From the NCBI GenBank assembly GCA_019894735.1, contig JAGXOB010000100.1, positions 1-8,224 on the forward strand: 8,224 nucleotides of DNA, in the 5' to 3' direction. Position numbers and translations under genes: made by a program. This stretch comes from Promethearchaeota archaeon. Its GTDB lineage: Archaea; Asgardarchaeota; Lokiarchaeia; Sigynarchaeales; SOKP01. The stretch's first letter is position 1. Each line of letters begins with the position of its first letter. The notes beneath the pieces were generated by a model. The model worked only from the letters and a program-made list of their open reading frames with translations, had not been told where the DNA came from and made no database searches. This document shows, in pieces, positions 1 through 8,224 of this stretch.

Positions 1-554
1 ATCTCGAAGAAAAAGTGGAGGATTCGATCAAAACTCAAAAAGTATTTTCGATATCGATTACTACGTTTATTATCATAGTTAGAGAAGGAGTAGAATTAGT
101 TCTGCTAACAACAGGTTCCGCATCTATAGGATCCTTAAATCAATTTAGCGTTATCTTAGGTTCTATTATAGGGTTAGCGATCTCGATTCTCATAGGACTT
201 TTAATTTTCTATGGTATAAGATCAATAAACTTGAGAATATTTTTCAAAATAACAAATGTGATGCTAATTTTATTCGCTGCTGGGTTAATAACATATGGAA
301 TTCACGAATTTATTGAAGCAGGAATAATTCCTCCGATTATTGATGAAGTATGGAATATTAAGCATATCTTACCAGAAAGCTTTCCCGATGGGAATCCAAC
401 AACGCCCGAATTTTTAGAAATTATCGGAGCATTGCTAAAGGCTCTATTTGGGTATAATGCTAACCCTGCTTTGTTAGAAGTAATTATATATCCGGTGCTA
501 TTAGTCTCTATCGGCTTGATTTCCTTGTTAATATGGAGACGAAACAATACCTAA
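1..554 (+). CDS. FTR1-family iron permease, C-terminal half (5' end outside window)
   Basis: This is probably the second half of a membrane permease for ferric/ferrous iron. The reading frame is open to the left edge (codons from base 3), so the GTG at 15 is unlikely to be the true start. Numbering from that GTG, REGVE lies at residues 23-27 at the end of a hydrophobic helix. FTR1 proteins carry two REGxE motifs that bind iron, and this fits the second one. After it come two hydrophobic helices joined by a short basic stretch, then an AAGLITYGIHEFIEAG segment, a loop with the family-like FGYNANPALLEV pattern, and a last helix ending in WRRNNT. That order matches the C-terminal half of EfeU/FTR1 proteins. 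The first REGxE motif and the N-terminal helices should lie upstream. The gene ends against a convergent regulator gene and has its own T-run. Whether it works with a periplasmic oxidase partner cannot be seen here. Confidence 0.82.
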   Translation, partial: LEEKVEDSIKTQKVFSISITTFIIIVREGVELVLLTTGSASIGSLNQFSVILGSIIGLAISILIGLLIFYGIRSINLRIFFKITNVMLILFAAGLITYGIHEFIEAGIIPPIIDEVWNIKHILPESFPDGNPTTPEFLEIIGALLKALFGYNANPALLEVIIYPVLLVSIGLISLLIWRRNNT

Positions 555-555
555 A

Positions 556-563
556 TTTTTTTT
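556..563 (+). terminator. T8 run after the iron permease gene
   Basis: Eight consecutive T begin two bases after the permease stop codon, with no preceding hairpin. Archaeal RNA polymerase commonly terminates at such U-tracts, so this is a plausible 3' end in the short convergent gap. Confidence 0.5.
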
Positions 564-583
564 ATTTCATTATTCCAGATTTG

Positions 584-589
584 AAAAAA
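584..589 (-). terminator. T6 run (minus strand) after the regulator gene
   Basis: Six A on the plus strand read as T6 on the minus strand, five bases past the regulator stop. With the T8 run on the other strand, this gives each of the two convergent genes its own U-tract within 40 bases. Confidence 0.4.
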
Positions 590-594
590 TAGAC

Positions 595-852
595 TTAAAC
601 TATTATTTCGAAAAGACTTACGCGTTTATCAACTAAATCCTTGGATTTTTTAATAAAATTTTTCTCTTGCAACTTTTTAAGAGCGTAGGCGGTTGTTCGT
701 TTAGGAAGAAGCGTTTTTGATATAATTTCTTGTTGTTTCAACGGACCTCTTTGTTTCAATAAATATAAAATAAATTTACTCGATGGAGATAATGAAAATA
801 AGTCTGCTTTTTGTTCATAATCCATAATGAAGTATTTATCCTCTACAATCAT
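595..852 (-). CDS. small winged-helix transcriptional regulator (MarR/TrmB-like fold)
   Basis: This is an 85-residue protein made almost entirely of one winged helix-turn-helix domain. Helix 1 spans about residues 22-34 (PSSKFILYLLKQ), helix 2 about 39-48 (KQQEIISKTL), and the recognition helix about 51-64 (KRTTAYALKKLQEK). A wing follows with the pattern DLVDKRVSLFEI, near 72-83. The R/KRT-x5-L-x2-L and D-x-R wing features are typical of MarR-type regulators. There is no ligand-binding or long dimerisation domain. The start at 852 is favoured by AGGTGG four bases upstream and a TATA-like box about 50 bases upstream; Met10 is an alternative. The gene converges on the iron permease, so iron-linked regulation is possible, but nothing in the protein shows a metal site. 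The target is unknown. Confidence 0.72.
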   Translation of the reverse strand: MIVEDKYFIMDYEQKADLFSLSPSSKFILYLLKQRGPLKQQEIISKTLLPKRTTAYALKKLQEKNFIKKSKDLVDKRVSLFEIIV

Positions 853-856
853 GTAA

Positions 857-862
857 CCACCT
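857..862 (-). promoter_or_regulatory. ribosome binding site AGGTGG for the regulator
   Basis: On the minus strand AGGTGG sits four bases before the ATG at 852. It matches part of the archaeal anti-Shine-Dalgarno complement (GGAGGTGA) and supports this start over Met10. Confidence 0.5.
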
Positions 863-897
863 ATATTAAAATTATTTTGATGTTTATTATTTTGTTC

Positions 898-912
898 AAT
901 TTATAATAAAGT
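898..912 (-). promoter_or_regulatory. TATA-like box for the regulator gene
   Basis: The minus strand reads ACTTTATTATAAATT here. An archaeal start site about 26 bases downstream would fall near 878, leaving a leader of about 26 bases that includes the AGGTGG site. In DNA this AT-rich, such boxes also occur by chance. Confidence 0.35.
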
Positions 913-970
913 TTATGTATATTTAAGATTATCGGGAATTGATTAATTTAATTTTCGGAATAAGGCTGTG

Positions 971-1021
971 TTTCAAATAGCTACAATTTTGAAAAAAAAG
1001 TTTCAAATTTAAACTTTCAAA
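971..1021. repeat. TTTCAAA heptamer cluster with TTTGAAA inverse
   Basis: TTTCAAA occurs at 971-977, 1001-1007 and 1015-1021, and its inverse TTTGAAA at 988-994. The pair 988-994/1001-1007 forms a perfect 7-base inverted repeat, and AAGTTT/AAACTT overlaps it. This could be a binding-site cluster or simple AT-rich drift. Confidence 0.35.
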
Positions 1022-1106
1022 ATTTATCGGATATCATTAGAGAGGAGAGACATTAAATTAAAAAATGGGTCTTTTTATGGTTTCTAAATCAATCTTCTCA
1101 TAATTA

Positions 1107-1121
1107 TGCAAAAATTGCACA
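1107..1121. promoter_or_regulatory. dyad motif copy 1, TGCAAAAATTGCACA
   Basis: TGCAA-AAA-TTGCA is a perfect 5-base inverted repeat with a 3-base spacer. A second copy with one change lies at 5370-5384 in the divergent promoter region (14 of 15 bases identical). TTTATAATA starts five bases after copy 1. It looks like an operator for a dimeric regulator; the protein that binds it is unknown. Confidence 0.4.
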
Positions 1122-1149
1122 TATCTTTATAATATTTTACGTAAATACT

Positions 1150-1170
1150 ATTCTTCAAATAAAGAAGAAT
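1150..1170 (+). other. short hairpin, 7-bp stem and 7-base loop
   Basis: ATTCTTC (1150-1156) and GAAGAAT (1164-1170) are perfect inverted repeats around AAATAAA. The hairpin lies about 20 bases after the TATA-like box at 1126-1134, so it would be at or near the 5' end of any transcript made from there. Confidence 0.3.
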
Positions 1171-1353
1171 TTGAATTAAATTGATTTTGACTTCGCCCTT
1201 AGCATTATTTGAAATAATCTAATTTCTTGGGATATTTTGTTTGAATTTTTTTCTTCTTTCCCTCTTTTTATTAACTCTCGCTTTCTTAAAATCATATAGC
1301 TACTCGAATTTCACATAATATGTTAAAAAGGGGTAGATATCTTAAAATTAAGT

Positions 1354-1359
1354 AAAAAA
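1354..1359 (-). terminator. T6 run after the oxidoreductase operon
   Basis: On the minus strand a T6 run lies about 30 bases past the stop codon of the last operon gene, with a second weaker T-run near 1324-1328. There is no hairpin. This is a plausible archaeal U-tract terminator for the three-gene operon. Confidence 0.35.
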
Positions 1360-1389
1360 TAGAATTTTTATGCCAATAATCGTGGTGAT

Positions 1390-2769
1390 TTACTGATAAA
1401 ATTCGCAATCGTTAAGGAGTTGAGATATATCCATTACTTTTATTGGAGAATTATCTTCATTGGCTACTTGAAATAAATTATTCTTACAAAACACGCATGA
1501 ACTGACTAAAACCTCTGCATTGGTTTCTAAGGCTTCTTTCAATCTATCTTCACGTATTCTTACCATACAAGTACGGGTTTCGGCTATCCTATCTCTTCCA
1601 ATTTCGCCAGCGACATCTCCATACAACGCTTTAACTCCGCCTCCTGCTCCACAACACCAGGCCATGTCCCTATTATGTTTCATTTCAAATAATTTTACAC
1701 CTTCAATCATTTGAATCAATTCTCTTGGTTCCTCATAAACATTGCAATATCTCCCTAAATGACATGGGTCGTGATAAGTAATCAATAAAGGATTATCTTT
1801 GGATCGTTTGGTATATCTGATCTTTAAATTTTTCTCCTTTACCATTCTCAGGGCATATTGCGTCAAATGGAAAAGATCGAAACCTAGGTTTCCACCCGCA
1901 TATTTAGTGTATTCTAATGTAAAAGTGGAAAAACATCCTGAACATGAAAAGACAACTTCAGTAACACCACTATTTCGAATCATTTCATAGTTATGCTTAA
2001 CGAGAGCTAAAGCCTCATCTTCTAAGCCTGTACGAAATAATACCGATCCACAGCATCTTTCCTCTGGAAAAACCACAAATTCAATTCCCAGTTTTCCTAA
2101 AACTTCACTTGTTGCATTAACCAGTTCTTTATTTCGGTAAGCAGACGTACAACCAACAAAGTAACCTACTTTACGGGGCTTTTCTTTCCTTGCGTTTTGA
2201 TCCTCAACTGCAAGTGTGTCCTCAATCGCTGCAAGTTCTTTTTTTGCTCGTTCATAAGCTTTTTTTCCATCTTCAGAACCCTCACACCAATTAAATCTAT
2301 CAGTATGTTGTTCAAGAAATGGATTATTATTACTAAGGATTGATTTTCGAAGGCCTTTTAACTTCTCAGGCATGGCACCTTTTTTAACAACGGACTTACG
2401 CAAATTTTGAAACACTTCAAGCGTATTTATTCCCACAGGACAGACTACTTTGCAATTACCACAGAGCATACAGCGGTAAACAGAGGGGATTATATCTTCT
2501 TTATCAAACTTTATATCCTTACGGTCTAATGCTTTGATAATTCTATTCCGTCCACCAGCATAATCAGTTTCTGACCAGGAAGTATTATAAACTTTGCAAA
2601 CGTGACGGCAATACCCACAATGAGTACAACGTTCATAACCGAACTTTTCTTCTTTTTCCTTTGTTTTTGGTTCAATTAAATTCGCTTTAGAAGGAGAAAC
2701 TAAACCAGCAACCGGTGGACCTGTTGTAACTACATCGCGTATATCCTTTTTATCTTTACCTTCACTCAT
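1390..2769 (-). CDS. HdrD/GlcF-type iron-sulfur oxidoreductase subunit with two CCG domains
   Basis: This 459-residue soluble protein probably relays electrons from the FAD protein encoded just upstream. Two 4Fe-4S ferredoxin motifs lie near the N-terminus: C48, C51, C54, C58 and C100, C103, C106, C110 (the second ends CP). Two cysteine-rich CCG domains follow. The first has C207, C239-C240 and C276/C279, spaced CX31CCX35CX2C, which fits the family rule. The second has C336, C372-C373 and C425/C428, with 51 residues between CC and the last pair. That is longer than I recall for relatives, and the extra stretch contains C401. CCG domains bind a non-cubane 4Fe-4S cluster in HdrB/HdrD and occur in GlcF, GlpC and LutA. 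No membrane helix or signal peptide is visible. AGAGGAT seven bases before the ATG supports the start. The paired FAD gene favours a GlcF-like role over heterodisulfide reduction; the substrate is unknown. Confidence 0.85.
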   Translation of the reverse strand: MSEGKDKKDIRDVVTTGPPVAGLVSPSKANLIEPKTKEKEEKFGYERCTHCGYCRHVCKVYNTSWSETDYAGGRNRIIKALDRKDIKFDKEDIIPSVYRCMLCGNCKVVCPVGINTLEVFQNLRKSVVKKGAMPEKLKGLRKSILSNNNPFLEQHTDRFNWCEGSEDGKKAYERAKKELAAIEDTLAVEDQNARKEKPRKVGYFVGCTSAYRNKELVNATSEVLGKLGIEFVVFPEERCCGSVLFRTGLEDEALALVKHNYEMIRNSGVTEVVFSCSGCFSTFTLEYTKYAGGNLGFDLFHLTQYALRMVKEKNLKIRYTKRSKDNPLLITYHDPCHLGRYCNVYEEPRELIQMIEGVKLFEMKHNRDMAWCCGAGGGVKALYGDVAGEIGRDRIAETRTCMVRIREDRLKEALETNAEVLVSSCVFCKNNLFQVANEDNSPIKVMDISQLLNDCEFYQ

Positions 2770-2776
2770 ATTTTTA

Positions 2777-2783
2777 TCCTCTG
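2777..2783 (-). promoter_or_regulatory. ribosome binding site AGAGGAT for the Fe-S subunit
   Basis: On the minus strand AGAGGAT lies seven bases before the ATG at 2769, inside the 86-base gap after the FAD gene. It is the clearest ribosome site in the operon and allows independent translation of this last gene. Confidence 0.5.
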
Positions 2784-2855
2784 TTCTATTTATTATTTAC
2801 CAACTTCAAGATGTGGTTTTATGTAATTAATTTTAATTGTTATATTTTATTTGAC

Positions 2856-4373
2856 CTATTTTTTTTTAAAAGAGATTTTATACAGTAATTTTGCTGTGTT
2901 AAAAAGGAGCGAAATTCTCCATAGTTTCATTCTAGCTTTAATTATACGATAAGAGTTAAACATATCTTTGGGATCTAATTTATCTTTCAATACTTTTCTC
3001 TCTTTTACAACTTCTCGTTTGTATTTTCGCAAATAAAAAGTATTAACAATCCCTATTGTGTAGAGGCTATCTCCTTGTTTAAATGCTTTCATGGACAAAT
3101 CGTGCAAAAATGCCTTAACAGTAAAAAATTCGATAGGTCTAGTAATATCTGAGAGCCCAAATATTTTTACTCGGCTCCAACCTTCTTCCCCAGAAATCGT
3201 ATAAGCTGCAATAGGAAACTTATAGTTACCAGCTCTTTTTACATAACTCTCGTAAAAGGATAATAATCTATCATTTGAAATCCAATATTCCTGAAAGATG
3301 ATATTTCTGCTCGTTCTTCCAATAGCTACTTCAGCATCGCTAATATCACGCCACTTTTCTTTTAGATAAGATTTATCTACCCCAACGCCATTTGAATTTA
3401 GAGCTATTTCTTCGGAAGCCGAAACACTTTTAAAAGTTACTTCTGGATCATCGTAAAAAACCGCCCAAACTAACCATTCTTGGCTTGGAAAATTGATGTG
3501 TGAATATCGTTCGAACTTTCGTTCTGAAATTGAAAGGAAAAATGGTTTATCTGGTACTTTACTCATTAAGGCTTTATAATAATTAATAGCATCTTCAAGA
3601 GAAGAAAATCCATATCCTATAATCTCTAACGAAGTTTTTAAATTTGTAAGAGATAATTCTATTTCTGAAACTGCACCATATATACCATAGGTTCCGGCAA
3701 TATCATCAAGCGATATTTCTCCTTTAGAATCCCTTGATATATACTCAATTTTGCCATTTGGAAGAACTAAAGTTAACGAGATAATCGAATCAGCCATTGT
3801 ACCATATTTTAGTACACCAATTCCTGCTTTACCTGGCGTTGCAAGAAACCCACCTACACAAGATGTTTTAAAGCTAGTTGGATAAGCCTTAGGTGCTAAT
3901 CCGTAATCTGAGAGCTTCTCAATTAGATTTAACCAAGAAATTCCGGCCCCAACTCTAACCGTCATTTTCTCAGGATCAATATGTTCAACTTTATTTATCC
4001 GACGCATATCAATTATCACTCCTCCTTTGGAAGGAGTTGCTGAGGAAAAGCACGATGTACCTGCAGCTCTTATTGTTATAGGTAGTGAGCGCTCCCAACA
4101 CTTCTCTATTAACTGCGATAGGCTCTCCGTGTCAGCAGGTCGAACAATGATACTTGCGAGATAATTTTTTTTAAATTTATAATGATAAGAGGGTAAAGAG
4201 GTAAGATCCGCAGAAGCAGACTCTAGCTCGTATTTATTAGTGCTTACATGGTATGGGGAAATAAATTCTTTAACAATTTCCTCGAAATTACGCTTTTTTC
4301 CCCCTTTTTTTATTTTTTCTGGGGTTTGGGTCAATTTCCCACTTAATTTTTCCTTAACTATTGTCTCATTCAT
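2856..4373 (-). CDS. GlcD-type FAD-binding oxidoreductase (2-hydroxyacid dehydrogenase-like)
   Basis: This 505-residue protein is likely the flavin subunit that oxidises a 2-hydroxyacid such as glycolate or D-lactate. A PCMH-type FAD domain spans about residues 70-250. It begins with the typical IIVRPADTESLSQLIEKC entry and has a Gly-rich RAAGTS loop at 102-107, IIDMRRINKV at 120-129 and a VGAG turn at 141-144. GGFLATPGKAGIGVLKYG (174-191) follows, then VLPNG at 203-207. The rest is the substrate cap, and LDPKDMFNS (466-474) is the usual near-C-terminal DPxxxxN motif. It has no cysteine cluster, so it needs the Fe-S partner encoded 86 bases downstream. The tail after about 480 is basic and amphipathic (RMKLWRISLLFNTAKLLYK) and could hold the protein on the membrane. 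The gene starts 17 bases after the membrane-protein gene, so the two are almost surely co-transcribed. The true substrate cannot be read from sequence; an alkylglycerone-phosphate-synthase-like or sugar oxidase role is less likely. Confidence 0.82.
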   Translation of the reverse strand: MNETIVKEKLSGKLTQTPEKIKKGGKKRNFEEIVKEFISPYHVSTNKYELESASADLTSLPSYHYKFKKNYLASIIVRPADTESLSQLIEKCWERSLPITIRAAGTSCFSSATPSKGGVIIDMRRINKVEHIDPEKMTVRVGAGISWLNLIEKLSDYGLAPKAYPTSFKTSCVGGFLATPGKAGIGVLKYGTMADSIISLTLVLPNGKIEYISRDSKGEISLDDIAGTYGIYGAVSEIELSLTNLKTSLEIIGYGFSSLEDAINYYKALMSKVPDKPFFLSISERKFERYSHINFPSQEWLVWAVFYDDPEVTFKSVSASEEIALNSNGVGVDKSYLKEKWRDISDAEVAIGRTSRNIIFQEYWISNDRLLSFYESYVKRAGNYKFPIAAYTISGEEGWSRVKIFGLSDITRPIEFFTVKAFLHDLSMKAFKQGDSLYTIGIVNTFYLRKYKREVVKERKVLKDKLDPKDMFNSYRIIKARMKLWRISLLFNTAKLLYKISFKKK

Positions 4374-4390
4374 TTTTTTTACACTTCAAT

Positions 4391-5278
4391 TTAAAATAAA
4401 GGAACTAATATAAAACCTAAAAAGAATGCTGCCCACCAGCAAACCAAAGTAATGTATCCCGTAAGTTTGGCGTATTTACGCTCGGCAGCTATACCAAACA
4501 ACATGCTAAGAAGCCCCGTAAATAATCCCACTGCCCCTAAAATGATATGACTTACATGTATGCCGAAGGGCTCAAAAGAAAACAAAGCATTTAGATCAAA
4601 ACCAAGGTTAAGGTTAATCAAAGAAACAGCGTTGATTAGGGTTAGAATCCAAGAAGCTCCACTAAATATTCCGTGTATTTTCACAAATTTATTTTCGTTT
4701 ATTAATACGAGGATAGTCCCAAGACTCAATAATAATAAAGCAGATAAACCGAGGATCAATCCAGTGTGATCAAAAATTTCGATTTGTGGCTCAGGTGGGG
4801 CCACTCCTCCTACACTAAAACCTATTTCTACATAGGCGAAATCAGGCTCGGCAACTGCTAAGTTGTCTCCTGCTAGTATGAAAAGAGAGTAAAAACCGTC
4901 TGTTTCAGGGATCGTAATGTTAAAAGTAATGATCATGGCACCTAAACCCGGATCTTTATCTTCTCCAAGATCATCATCCAATATTCTATCAGTAGAGGGA
5001 AGAATAATTAATTGTCCATTTTGCATTACGCTCGTAATTTCATTAGGAGCCAGAATAAATAAATTGGGTCCAGTGGCAGTTACATTAAACACAACAACTT
5101 CTGAGGGATCCACTGAATTAGTGGTGCTTATATTAGCTGAAATTGTATATCCTCCCGGTACTGTATGACAGTCACTGTGATCTAATTCTTGGCTTGGAAA
5201 TGCGTTTCCATTTAGAACCAGTAGCAATACTGGTAAACCAATAATTGCGATAAACAAGATGAGAATTTTTTTCTTCAT
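4391..5278 (-). CDS. secreted HxxCH domain fused to a four-helix membrane domain; putative membrane cytochrome
   Basis: I do not recognise a named family for the whole 295-residue protein. Residues 1-26 are a signal peptide (KKK, then a hydrophobic core). Residues 34-38 read HSDCH, followed by an extracytoplasmic beta-rich domain to about 160 with SVDPSE, a repeated aliphatic pattern and ITIPET. This domain is similar to the one in the gene at 7531. Four membrane helices follow (about 172-194, 200-222, 241-263, 271-295). They look like a duplicated two-helix unit: K200-x2-G203-x6-W210 matches K271-x2-G274-x6-W281. Each unit starts with His at the predicted outer end (H171; H241/H244), which could ligate a b-type haem, and H202 is on the inner side. 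The gene heads the operon with the FAD and Fe-S subunits (17-base gap). I infer a membrane electron acceptor or exporter for them. A structural or metal-binding role for HxxCH is the alternative. Confidence 0.65.
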   Translation of the reverse strand: MKKKILILFIAIIGLPVLLLVLNGNAFPSQELDHSDCHTVPGGYTISANISTTNSVDPSEVVVFNVTATGPNLFILAPNEITSVMQNGQLIILPSTDRILDDDLGEDKDPGLGAMIITFNITIPETDGFYSLFILAGDNLAVAEPDFAYVEIGFSVGGVAPPEPQIEIFDHTGLILGLSALLLLSLGTILVLINENKFVKIHGIFSGASWILTLINAVSLINLNLGFDLNALFSFEPFGIHVSHIILGAVGLFTGLLSMLFGIAAERKYAKLTGYITLVCWWAAFFLGFILVPLF

Positions 5279-5369
5279 TATCCTTACATCGTATTGTTAT
5301 AATCTTAATTGGTATTGTAAAACAAATAAAGCTTTTATTTAGAAATTATAAGTGAATTTTAAAGTTTGA

Positions 5370-5384
5370 TGCGAAAATTGCACA
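5370..5384. promoter_or_regulatory. dyad motif copy 2, TGCGAAAATTGCACA
   Basis: This copy matches 14 of 15 bases of the motif at 1107-1121. Here the inverted repeat TGCGA-AAA-TTGCA has one mismatch. Its place in the middle of a divergent promoter suggests an operator shared by the oxidoreductase operon and the haem lyase gene. Confidence 0.4.
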
Positions 5385-5435
5385 CTTTTCTCATAAAATA
5401 CTTGCTGATGAAAGAGTATGGTTCTAGTTTATGAA

Positions 5436-5445
5436 TTTTTATAAC
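5436..5445 (+). promoter_or_regulatory. TATA-like box for the CcmF-like gene
   Basis: TTTTTATAAC lies about 40 bases before the ATG at 5482. A start site about 26 bases on would leave a very short leader. No ribosome site is visible before the ATG, which fits a leaderless or nearly leaderless mRNA. Confidence 0.35.
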
Positions 5446-5481
5446 AATCTTTTTTAATCCTAGTTATTTCATTCATTTATT

Positions 5482-7191
5482 ATGAAAATTGATCACTTTT
5501 CACTTAAGAAGATATTACTAATTGATTTGATAGTGATCTTAAGTATTGCTATTGTTATTCCTCTCGTATTAGATTTATTTGGGCTAAATATCAAGATAAT
5601 AGCCATTTCCTTTATAGGGAATTTTCTAATCATTTCTACGATCATTATTACTATTGTCGATCTCTTTTATCTTATAAGATTTAGACGAAATATTTACCTT
5701 TTAGCTTCGCTAAGTATGAGTTTTACGATTTCTTTATTTTTACTTTTAGAATATTGTTTTCTAAATGACTATTATGATTTTATCTATGTCTGGAGTTATA
5801 GTAAATCTACCCTCCCTATTATTTACAAGATGGTAGCGATTTGGGCTGGTGAAGCCGGTTCTATCATGACTTGGATGTTATTTAATTCTATCATTATTTT
5901 CTTTTACAGGCTCAAGAATCAGATAAAGGATGACATTATTTTTATAATATCAGTTATAATTTCTTTACTAATTTCATCCATATTTTTGGTTATTTTATTT
6001 TCTTATGAACCTTTTCAAATTCAGACTCCTTTTATATTTCCTAACGGATTAGGTTTGAATCCGCTTTTAATATCTCCATTTATGATTTGGCATCCATTAT
6101 TTACATTTATAGCTTACGCCATTTTCTTAATTCCCTTTACTATTTCAATTATTGAAATTATTAAGCCAAATTTTTCTCTGGAAAATCCTTACCAAAAATC
6201 CTTTTATGATTTTTGTATAAAGTTTGGTTGGTTAGTATTGACCGTAAGTATTGGATTGGGCGCATATTGGGCAAAAATAGCACTTAATTGGGGTAGATAC
6301 TGGGGCTGGGATCCTGTGGAGACCGTTTCTCTTGTCCCTTGGTTTTTAAGTACAGCATATTTTCATACTAGGACTTTTAAAAAGAAAAACAGTAGATTGG
6401 TCAAAATCAACATAATTTCGATATTTTTATCTATAGTTTTTTCCACTTTAATAACGCGTGGAGGAGGTTTGACTTCTTTACATGCCTTCACAGGGGAAAA
6501 TAATTTAGTAACTTGGACTTTAATCGTTGGCTCAGCATTAATTATTTTCTCGCTATATGTTATATATAATAGTTTAAATTCTTTATCTGAAGAATATAAA
6601 AAAACGAGACTCTTATTAGATTATTTAAGTTACATATTTTTATTTATGTTAGCTTTTGTTTGCATCTTTGGTCTTTTTATCACTCCTCTGTCAGTTTTTC
6701 TCTCTACCTTCTTTAGTTTTAATATAATATTCGTAGGAACAGATTTTTTTATTCTGACAACATTAATATTAGCTTCTGGATTAGCTCTTACACTAATATT
6801 TTGCTCACTATATGGTATATATAAATTAAAATGGATTGCTGTAGCATTAATAATAGGCGTGGTATTTCAATCCGTTATTTCTTTAGTACTATTCCTTTTT
6901 TCGAGCATTTGGATAAATCCACTGATTGCAATATTCATACTGGCATTACTGACTTCAATTTTAAAATTAATAAAAGATTTTGATAGTGGTAAAGGAATAA
7001 AGCATTTTTTTAAGATTAACTCAAAAACTTATGTTCATATAGGTTTATCTTTAATCTTAATTGGAACGCTAATTGATCCTGAAACCTGGTTTTTTCAAGA
7101 CATTTTCTTTATTTCAGGGTTTTTATTTTTAGTGAGTGGAATAATTCCCTCCATACTTATTCTATTAATTCTTAAGAGAAACAAAGAGTAA
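5482..7191 (+). CDS. ccmF: CcmF-type cytochrome c haem lyase
   Basis: This is a polytopic membrane protein of 569 residues that attaches haem to apocytochrome c in System I maturation. The CcmF order is clear: PIIYKMVAIWAGEAGSIMTW (near 113-132), then GLNPLL with WHPLF, where H204 matches the first external His. The WWD motif WGRYWGWDPVE follows at 270-280, then H295 in AYFHTR, H334 in TSLHAF and H519 in YVHIGLSLILIG near the C-terminus. These four histidines correspond to the two haem-binding pairs of bacterial CcmF. The H519 site and the entry segment argue for CcmF over CcmC or CcsA, which lack them. The protein is somewhat shorter than E. coli CcmF (about 650 residues). The ATG at 5482 has no ribosome site but follows a TATA-like box. 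No ccmA, B, C, E or H lies in the window. The gene sits between two genes for HxxCH proteins, which are its candidate substrates. Confidence 0.9.
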   Translation: MKIDHFSLKKILLIDLIVILSIAIVIPLVLDLFGLNIKIIAISFIGNFLIISTIIITIVDLFYLIRFRRNIYLLASLSMSFTISLFLLLEYCFLNDYYDFIYVWSYSKSTLPIIYKMVAIWAGEAGSIMTWMLFNSIIIFFYRLKNQIKDDIIFIISVIISLLISSIFLVILFSYEPFQIQTPFIFPNGLGLNPLLISPFMIWHPLFTFIAYAIFLIPFTISIIEIIKPNFSLENPYQKSFYDFCIKFGWLVLTVSIGLGAYWAKIALNWGRYWGWDPVETVSLVPWFLSTAYFHTRTFKKKNSRLVKINIISIFLSIVFSTLITRGGGLTSLHAFTGENNLVTWTLIVGSALIIFSLYVIYNSLNSLSEEYKKTRLLLDYLSYIFLFMLAFVCIFGLFITPLSVFLSTFFSFNIIFVGTDFFILTTLILASGLALTLIFCSLYGIYKLKWIAVALIIGVVFQSVISLVLFLFSSIWINPLIAIFILALLTSILKLIKDFDSGKGIKHFFKINSKTYVHIGLSLILIGTLIDPETWFFQDIFFISGFLFLVSGIIPSILILLILKRNKE

Positions 7192-7235
7192 TGTAATACT
7201 ATAAATTAAACTAATAGATAGGATCTAACTGTATT

Positions 7236-7253
7236 TAATTTTATTTAAAATTA
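7236..7253. repeat. AT palindrome TAATTTTA-TT-TAAAATTA
   Basis: An 8-base perfect inverted repeat with a 2-base centre, made only of A and T, lies 45 bases past the haem lyase stop. It may mark the 3' end of that transcript or may be chance in this composition. Confidence 0.3.
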
Positions 7254-7291
7254 TAAATATCTGATTTATATAATATAAACATGCTTTAAGC

Positions 7292-7367
7292 GGGTTCAAA
7301 TTGAAACTAATTATTACTTTTAGTTTAAAAATCAAACTAGAACAATTTCAATTGTTTAAATTAACCC
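7292..7367 (+). other. nested inverted repeats, possible RNA structure
   Basis: GGGTT (7292-7296) pairs with AACCC (7363-7367), and inside it AATTGAAA (7299-7306) pairs with TTTCAATT (7346-7353). Two alternative smaller hairpins are AAACTA/TAGTTT (7304-7309/7321-7326) and AACAAT/ATTGTT (7341-7346/7351-7356). GGGTT/AACCC is the only GC-bearing stem in this stretch. No known RNA family is recognised. Confidence 0.25.
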
Positions 7368-7491
7368 AAATTAATAAAAGTTATAAATTATAGGGAATTT
7401 CCTTAAATTAAGCAAATTTATAACATATTTGATTTGTTCAAATGCATAACGAACTATATCAATTATTAAAAACAGAAAAGCAAAGATAACG

Positions 7492-7525
7492 CGTTTAAAG
7501 TTTTATCTTTTTAAGAAAAAAGGGG
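7492..7525 (+). promoter_or_regulatory. promoter-proximal region and AGGGG ribosome site of the secreted-protein gene
   Basis: GTTTAAAG (7493-7500 region) is a weak TATA-like box about 32-38 bases before the ATG. AGGGG (7521-7525) lies five bases before the ATG at 7531 and supports this start. Confidence 0.35.
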
Positions 7526-7530
7526 TTTTA

Positions 7531-8224
7531 ATGAAAATAAACAGAAAAATTTCGTCTTTTTTAATCACTACCATACTGTTTTTATCAATCTTGGGGTTTG
7601 TAATAGCAGATACAGAGTTTTTCCCTGATTTCACCGGAGAGGGGCACGGGGGTTGCCATGGTCCTATAACAGAAAGTGCTAGTGGGTATATCTCTTTAAC
7701 GTCAAATTCAGGATCATCTGTAAATCCAAGTGAAACTTTTACAATTACTATCCAAATATTAAGTTTTAGTGAGGCTCAAGGTAGAAATATTGAAGTAGGT
7801 TTTCCAAGTGGGTCTCCTGGCAGAGGAGATAACAAGGATTTTTCCTTTAACACAACTCAACAACCAATCAATATAGATAGTTCTGGGAATTCAGTAACGT
7901 TAGATTTTCAAGTTACAGCACCAGCAACTGAACTAACCTATACTCTCCATTCTGATGCTATTCGCAGAGTTGGTGGTGGCCCATCCTATTTTGCTCATGG
8001 TGATTTTATCGTTACTGTGGAAGTGCCAAATAATCCACCTCAATTTAACAATATAGTTGAGAGTCGTGATCCTTTAGAATTTGGTCAACAAGAAACTTTC
8101 CAAGTCGATGTGACTGATTCTGAAACAAGTGTCGACACCGTCTTTATTGAATTAGAAGGTATTAACTACACTATGTCTAATATTGTTGGAGACACATTCG
8201 AATATAACTGGACTCCAAGTACTC
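7531..8224 (+). CDS. secreted HxxCH-domain protein, N-terminal part (3' end outside window)
   Basis: The frame is open for 231 residues to the right edge. Residues 1-26 form a signal peptide (basic N-terminus, hydrophobic core, ending VIADTE or nearby). Residues 39-43 read HGGCH within GEGHGGCHG. A beta-sandwich-like domain follows to about residue 164, with ASGYISL, SVNPSETFTITI, a LDFQVTAPATELTYTLHSDA stretch (about 145-144 region ends at H140-A143) and FAHGDFIVTVEV. From about 167 a second Ig-like domain begins (NNPPQFNNIVES, DVTDSE). The first domain aligns by eye with the extracytoplasmic domain of the protein at 4391-5278: both have HxxCH, then G-Y, then SV(N/D)PSE, then F-x-(V/I)-T-x-P. 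I recall bacterial choice-of-anchor V/reelin-like domains with a CxxCH at the equivalent place; that link is tentative. H140 and H156 are conserved-looking candidates for a distal ligand. A C-terminal anchor, if any, is outside the window. The cell-surface location is well supported, the function is not. Confidence 0.7.
   Translation, partial: MKINRKISSFLITTILFLSILGFVIADTEFFPDFTGEGHGGCHGPITESASGYISLTSNSGSSVNPSETFTITIQILSFSEAQGRNIEVGFPSGSPGRGDNKDFSFNTTQQPINIDSSGNSVTLDFQVTAPATELTYTLHSDAIRRVGGGPSYFAHGDFIVTVEVPNNPPQFNNIVESRDPLEFGQQETFQVDVTDSETSVDTVFIELEGINYTMSNIVGDTFEYNWTPST

Follow-up and report, generated by a model that had tools for sequence, protein, structure and literature searches.

Conserved HxxCH motifs beside a CcmF haem lyase suggest single-cysteine haem c sites in an Asgard archaeal lineage

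Introduction

What does a haem lyase act on when no ordinary haem c site lies beside it? The question is raised by an 8,224-nucleotide stretch of DNA from a Promethearchaeota archaeon (assembly GCA_019894735.1, contig JAGXOB010000100.1, positions 1 to 8,224), here called the window. It encodes CcmF, the haem lyase of the cytochrome c maturation (Ccm) pathway, between genes for two predicted exported proteins that carry HSDCH and HGGCH where a haem c site would read CxxCH. The original prediction, made from the letters of the window, was that these are haem sites with one cysteine. We report that the HxxCH sites are real and strongly conserved, and that they most likely belong to a prokaryotic haem c system that uses one cysteine per site and depends on a modified Ccm.

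Passages of PMC8262978 describe single-thioether mitochondrial cytochromes c as unique to Euglenozoa, and call the reason for them a mystery of almost 50 years. We recognised no description of HxxCH haem sites or of single-cysteine Asgard cytochromes in the literature searched, mostly by title; the string HXXCH returned one paper, on peptide nanoparticles, which is unrelated. Genomes, loci and proteins are cited below by our own handles (G, L and P numbers).

Results

Both motifs are conserved in proteins with predicted export

Each motif follows an N-terminal hydrophobic segment, and export of both proteins is predicted from hydropathy. The protein with HSDCH consists of an exported immunoglobulin (Ig)-like domain (about residues 44-155) and a domain of four transmembrane (TM) helices. 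Its AlphaFold2 model, with a mean predicted local distance difference test (pLDDT) score of 84, shows an N-terminal helix before the motif, an Ig-like sandwich and four helices. A homologue search gave 158 matches; among the 120 listed, three are fragments and 117 reach the motif. All 117 have H-x(1-4)-CH, as HxxCH (104 sequences), HxxxxCH (12) or HxCH (1). Within the 104, the H, C and H are fixed, whereas the intervening pair of residues is free to vary. In the four-TM domain, His171, His202 and His244 are invariant and His241 nearly so.

The large Ig-domain protein that contains HGGCH gave a similar picture. H-x(2-4)-CH was found in 35 of its 36 homologues (31 HxxCH, 3 HxxxxCH and 1 HxxxCH), the 36th being a fragment that begins past the motif. 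The motif Cys is the sole cysteine in each of the 35, which are 862-1515 residues long. Their lengths (P0121-P0155) cluster near 862, 955, 1143, 1327 and 1513 residues, in steps of about 93 or double that, as if Ig-like repeats had been gained or lost in pairs. The first domain of the window protein (residues 41-142) resembles choice_anch_V (NF041895, E value 5e-7, 29.8 bits), as does that of the G001 copy (33.5 bits), both below the cut-off of 42; an AlphaFold2 model of part of the window protein is Ig-like (pLDDT 76). A bacterial match (L002) was dropped, having no motif near the match and seeming to be a chance beta-sandwich.

For both proteins the homologues are sequences clustered at 90% identity, and so are not independent events. 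Between the window and its closest named relative (L001, a Candidatus Lokiarchaeota bin49 contig, 77% identical over query residues 1-231), the ratio of nonsynonymous to synonymous substitution rates (Nei-Gojobori) was 0.24 and 0.26 for the HxxCH proteins and 0.13 for CcmF, and all three are under purifying selection. The original prediction had named loss of the cysteine or the final histidine in homologues as evidence against it; both residues are invariant among the aligned homologues. HxxCH as a pattern stood in part. A histidine precedes CH in the listed homologues of both proteins, but at variable distance (HxCH, HxxxCH and HxxxxCH also occur), and the membrane proteins of G123 and G143 have no such histidine. 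The first His is therefore not indispensable.

Canonical exported clients were not seen in the parts read of two related genomes

We looked for ordinary Ccm clients in G123, a one-contig genome, covering 2.02 of its 3.34 Mb (61%, with 17.2 kb masked as N). None of the 22 open reading frame (ORF) matches to CXXCH in this portion had an export-like N-terminus by a hydropathy cut. Nine ORFs carried xxxCH soon after a hydrophobic N-terminal segment, and three of them are family members: two 371-residue membrane proteins and a 212-residue protein with HDYMGCH. The background, judged by eye, was 6 of 2001 ORFs with an unrelated xxxCH at most 60 residues from such a segment. Together, the conservation of the motifs and this background lead us to reject a chance origin. 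The two 371-residue proteins have ATLGCH, with no His. In G118, no exported protein was seen among the first 30 of 131 CXXCH matches in the DNA.

The membrane protein has relatives with canonical motifs

Among 227 genomes of the Asgard phylum, 34 had matches to the membrane protein, many restricted to the membrane domain. Long proteins read from G187, G190, G191, G196, G201, G207 and G210 all have CxxCH, CxxxCH or CxxxxCH (CATSGCH, CTASGCH, CTTSGCH, CSSVCH, CSVCH, CSSCH and CSTCH). Near the seven C-form genes we saw iron-sulphur proteins by eye, and in G196, G201 and G210 multihaem CXXCH proteins adjoin them. In seven further genomes (G086, G087, G089, G135, G136, G146 and G147; L011-L013 and L015-L018) the four-helix domain was matched alone, with the exported domain not aligned, and PF01578 was over its cut-off in G089 only.

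In an alignment of 60 sequences that covers both forms, the CH pair, three membrane histidines and one Trp are invariant, and a fourth His reaches at least 90%. A tree built without the motif columns set the 7 C forms apart on one side of a branch, and likewise the 48 H forms (Shimodaira-Hasegawa-like approximate likelihood ratio test, 100 and 99). The five remaining rows are neither: ATLGCH twice (G123), ATLSCH (G143), NDNCH (G154) and CxCH (G162).

A search with a profile of small domain proteins scored 7983 candidates from a capped list and gave at least 45 matches, 16 with H and 24 with C before CH and 5 that stop short of the motif. Proteins named Thorarchaeota were present in both forms, so such names are no guide to the form. 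G186 has one protein with CGGCH and a small one with CGCH. A shortened C-x-CH, a spacing unusual for haem c, occurs in exported proteins at L042 (G186:C20) and L019 (G162).

The distance to CH differs among C forms as it does among H forms. These alignments indicate that the H form is a variant of a family with ordinary haem c motifs, with His at the position of the first Cys and a similar spread of spacings. Since the same membrane protein carries CxxCH to CxxxxCH in other Asgard genomes, His appears to replace the first haem cysteine in the clade of the window.

CcmF is intact, and CcmE is altered in relatives

CcmF of the window matches PF01578 over its cut-off (E value 1.5e-27) and TIGR00353 below it (9e-43). 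It keeps the WWD motif and four conserved histidines (in WHP, FHT, LHAF and VHIG), and across the window and 29 relatives WHP or IHP, WWD and the histidines of FHT-, LHAF- and VHIG-type stretches are kept wherever the fragment reaches. The only solved relative that we found was PDB 6zmq (E value 1.6e-22, residues 66-438 only). Among the 227 genomes, 32 had CcmF matches. CcmFs of the window type (45-76% identity) are present in G001, G118, G121, G130 and, in two copies, G123; they form one clade (100), distinct from the CcmFs of G185-G215 (99), in a tree from which the fragment of G046 was left out. In all five of these genomes CcmF adjoins an H-x(2-4)-CH protein. The two CcmF copies of G123 lie in tandem; these and the two copies of its CH membrane protein are at L080 (G123:C1:3299073-3302575) and L084 (G123:C1:1734230-1735345). 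CcmF was not found in G133 and G143, both of which have CcmC and CcmE; because their membrane-protein genes lie less than 150 bases from a contig end and face it, we read this as possible assembly gaps.

The original prediction also called for a test of co-occurrence with ccmF. CcmE or CcmF was present in 7 of the 9 genomes whose membrane protein lacks a CxxCH-type motif and in 31 of the 218 others (Fisher p 6e-5, uncorrected for kinship), as that prediction would have it. The two without are G154 (NDNCH) and G162 (CxCH on a second look). These counts include a CcmE match in G005 that we judged likely false, a 462-residue frame without the haem handle.

CcmE was over its cut-off in 27 of 227 genomes. 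Passages of PMC9084895 describe archaeal CcmE as universally CXXXY and give evidence that its Cys binds haem. In all seven single-cysteine genomes that have CcmE (L149 in G143, L150 in G130, L152 in G118, L154 in G121, L155 in G001, L158 in G133 and L161 in G123), the haem-handle Cys is kept and the Tyr of CxxxY is lost. These proteins end at or shortly past the handle Cys, in QCS in six of them (G001, G118, G121, G130, G133 and G143) and in YCCDRSTGV in G123. Among G185-G215, 14 of 14 genomes have CPSKY, CPSRY or CSSKY as the handle, and the Tyr is kept in all six genomes in which both a C form and CcmE were read (G186, G190, G196, G201, G205 and G210). Six CcmEs of G043-G053 have CPSKY, and G049 has CLSKF.

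The argument that a single-cysteine site needs less thiol reduction survived for one component and failed for the other. CcdA/DsbD_TM was over its cut-off in one of the seven single-cysteine Ccm genomes (G121; G123 has one match below it) against 21 of 26 in two comparison sets, 14 of 19 in G185-G215 and 7 of 7 in G042-G052 (Fisher p 0.02 with the 19 alone and 0.002 with all 26, uncorrected for kinship). Of those 26, 25 have a CcmE or CcmF match. CcdA/DsbD_TM was not found in G154 or G162. With its single Cys the motif can form no internal disulphide, and the scarcity of CcdA agrees with this. By contrast, CcmH (PF03918) was over its cut-off in 0 of 227 genomes, with eight weak matches below it and none of these in a single-cysteine genome. 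We reject the absence of CcmH as a special adaptation, since it is phylum-wide and includes the genomes with CxxCH.

The motif proteins lie among Ccm and electron-transfer genes

The window was described as having HSDCH and HGGCH on either side of CcmF and no canonical CxxCH. Coordinates, export-like N-termini and CcmF profile matches all agreed with this, and no CxxCH occurs in its frames of at least 60 codons; the only other xxxCH in such frames is HDPCH, in the iron-sulphur protein. The features are collected in Table 1.

Table 1. Features of the window, and two CH membrane proteins of other genomes. Unless a locus is named, positions refer to the window.
Feature	Position	Strand	Remarks
FTR1 iron permease	3-554	+	cut at window edge
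MarR-type regulator	595-852	-	
HdrD/GlpC-like iron-sulphur subunit	1390..2769	-	CCG, 4Fe-4S; NCBIfam equivalogs all below cut-off
GlcD-like FAD dehydrogenase subunit	2856..4373	-	PF01565 E value 3e-32; TIGR00387 E value 1e-28, below cut-off
Membrane protein with HSDCH	4391..5278	-	295 residues
HSDCH, proposed single-thioether haem site	5165..5179	-	residues 34-38 of the membrane protein
CcmF haem lyase	5482..7191	+	PF01578, TIGR00353
Large multi-Ig exported protein with HGGCH, N-terminal part	7531..8224	+	open frame 7531-8223, leaves the window
HGGCH, second proposed haem site	7645..7659	+	residues 39-43 of the large Ig-domain protein
CH membrane protein of G154	L094, 9466-10380		NDNCH
CH membrane protein of G162	L095, 9150-10058		CxCH

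The gene for the HSDCH membrane protein starts an apparent operon with the GlcD- and HdrD-like genes, the GlcD-like gene lying 17 bp downstream on the same strand. The contig is archaeal, and named homologues are labelled Lokiarchaeota, Hermodarchaeota, Hodarchaeota, Odinarchaeota, Thorarchaeota or Promethearchaeota. L001 has the identical gene order, with motifs HEICH and HSSCH. It continues into a region that would lie past the end of the window and that encodes an ABC ATPase (CcmA model E value 3e-32, below cut-off, with other ABC models scoring higher), CcmB (PF03379, 5e-10) and CcmE (PF03100, 1e-7), both over their Pfam cut-offs, and CcmC (PF01578, 1.5e-17, over cut-off; TIGR01191, 7e-21, below). 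An FTR1/EfeU-type iron permease adjoins the electron-transfer genes in both the window and L001. An Rfam scan of the window gave no match at gathering score.

Discussion

We consider it probable that the two HxxCH motifs are naturally occurring haem c sites of one cysteine each, with a Ccm that makes single-thioether cytochromes wired to a GlcD/HdrD-type dehydrogenase. The original proposal of single-cysteine haem sites passed those of its tests that could be run, and gained relatives with true CxxCH within the phylum; the attachment of haem itself is inferred. Haem would be exported by a reduced archaeal form of System I (CcmA, B, C, E and F, no CcmH) and held covalently by the Cys of CcmE, without the usual Tyr. 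CcmF would then bond the single Cys to one vinyl group of the haem, and the next His would be the proximal iron ligand. For HSDCH, this would make Cys37 the point of attachment and His38 the proximal ligand, and His34 would occupy the position of the first Cys.

The gene order suggests where electrons might flow. From the GlcD/HdrD-like dehydrogenase they would reach a b-type haem of the membrane domain, next the exported haem c and finally the large surface protein. A 2-hydroxyacid or similar compound could be the donor, with the path leading through flavin adenine dinucleotide (FAD) and iron-sulphur centres to the membrane b haem, and the HdrD/GlpC-like subunit is the proposed electron donor to the membrane protein. 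The b haem would be bound near His171 and His244, which are predicted from the model to lie on the outer side. The HdrDE and GlcDEF systems offer an analogy for such a path.

Several points weigh against this account. The motif region of the membrane protein (residues 23-39) has pLDDT below 50, and searches of both models with Foldseek and VIA-align 2 returned no cytochrome or haem template; the Ig-like parts matched generic domains of that kind and the helices matched generic bundles, which is weak evidence either way. The membrane proteins with ATLGCH and ATLSCH lack the first His. Between the C forms and the window protein, identity is only 27-30%, and the tree-building program warned of long branches, which meet in the membrane-protein tree. 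The direction of change, from Cys to His, rests on outside knowledge; we adopted it because of a rule outside the family, not from a root of the tree. The differences in motif, CcmE and CcdA may all be one transition at the base of one clade. G154 and G162 keep CH without a match to CcmF, CcmE or PF01578; by eye, their CH genes adjoin iron-sulphur or FAD-type genes, and these genomes have either lost Ccm, are incomplete, or put CH to another use. Finally, the E. coli Ccm reportedly does not attach haem to single-cysteine variants (Allen 2002). If so, adaptation to such clients would be expected of the lokiarchaeal CcmF clade and of its shortened CcmE.

A variant, which we regard as possible but unlikely, is that the first His is also bonded, so that haem is held by a thioether to Cys and a His-vinyl C-N bond, through a System I with a Cys-only CcmE. 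His-vinyl C-N bonds occur in bacterial CcmE and cyanobacterial GlbN. Bearing on this variant, the His is conserved at a changing distance, from HxCH to HxxxxCH, which mirrors CxCH to CxxxxCH.

The first of the rivals without covalent haem is that the His, Cys and His of the motif coordinate another metal (copper, zinc or non-haem iron) and that Ccm serves other proteins. The conservation of H, C and H would suit a metal site, as would the two related proteins of G154 and G162 that keep CH with no detectable Ccm, and the fold searches gave no haem template. We nevertheless find this unlikely. True CxxCH occurs in the same family, with the same membrane domain, in other Asgard genomes, and the 22 CXXCH matches in 61% of G123 included no exported candidate for Ccm to serve. 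Nor does a fixed ligand set fit a first His that is missing in G123 and G143 and elsewhere lies 1 to 4 residues from CH.

It is improbable that the sites are instead relics of a decaying Ccm, in which CH now serves a non-covalently bound (b-type) haem or no cofactor at all. A CcmE without its Tyr and C-terminal tail, and CcdA over cut-off in one of seven genomes, are what decay might leave. L001, however, retains CcmF, CcmC, CcmB, CcmE and a CcmA-like ATPase; CcmF motifs are kept throughout the clade under the constraint noted above, and CH is invariant over 117 sequences. Least probable, and very doubtful to us, is that the Cys forms an inter-chain disulphide or an attachment point for another group at the cell surface, for although it is the sole cysteine of 35 large surface proteins, this leaves the invariant adjacent His, the CxxCH relatives and the adjacency of CcmF unexplained.

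On the single-cysteine haem c account, the usual two-cysteine haem anchor has apparently been replaced by His and one Cys in an Asgard lineage, with a matching change in the machinery, as predicted from genomes. A Ccm whose visible clients have one cysteine, and whose CcmE has no Tyr, offers a natural experiment on the roles of the first Cys, of the Tyr in CcmE and of thiol reduction. It may also give Lokiarchaeota-type Asgard archaea, relatives of the ancestor of eukaryotes, an electron route to the cell surface that CXXCH searches would miss.

Parts of this system have known counterparts. According to the passages of PMC9084895 that describe it, Methanosarcina acetivorans has CcmABCEF; L001 likewise encodes a CcmA-like ATPase together with CcmB, C, E and F, and no CcmH, and in both the CcmE carries Cys in place of the bacterial His. 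The M. acetivorans system has CXXXY and CXXCH clients in that account (PMC9084895), unlike the relatives of the window, whose CcmE lacks the Tyr and whose clients carry a single Cys. The mitochondrial cytochromes c and c1 of euglenozoans (AAQCH and FAPCH) are counterparts in the motif itself, as portrayed in parts of PMC8262978, with one Cys and the proximal His kept and the N-terminal Cys replaced; they are matured by KCCS and have Ala or Phe as the replacement, where the Asgard proteins have His or, in G123 and G143, neither His nor Cys. We found no sequence similarity between the HxxCH proteins and these cytochromes. The choice-of-anchor V family (NF041895), whose members presumably carry CxxCH, shares with the large protein a motif followed by an Ig-like sandwich, at a score below the curated cut-off. 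Counterparts, too, are the Asgard C forms, which have the same Ig-like and four-TM protein with the same CH and membrane histidines and differ by the first Cys; where CcmE was found with them (G190, G196, G201 and G210), its handle is CPSKY, unlike that of the single-cysteine relatives of the window.

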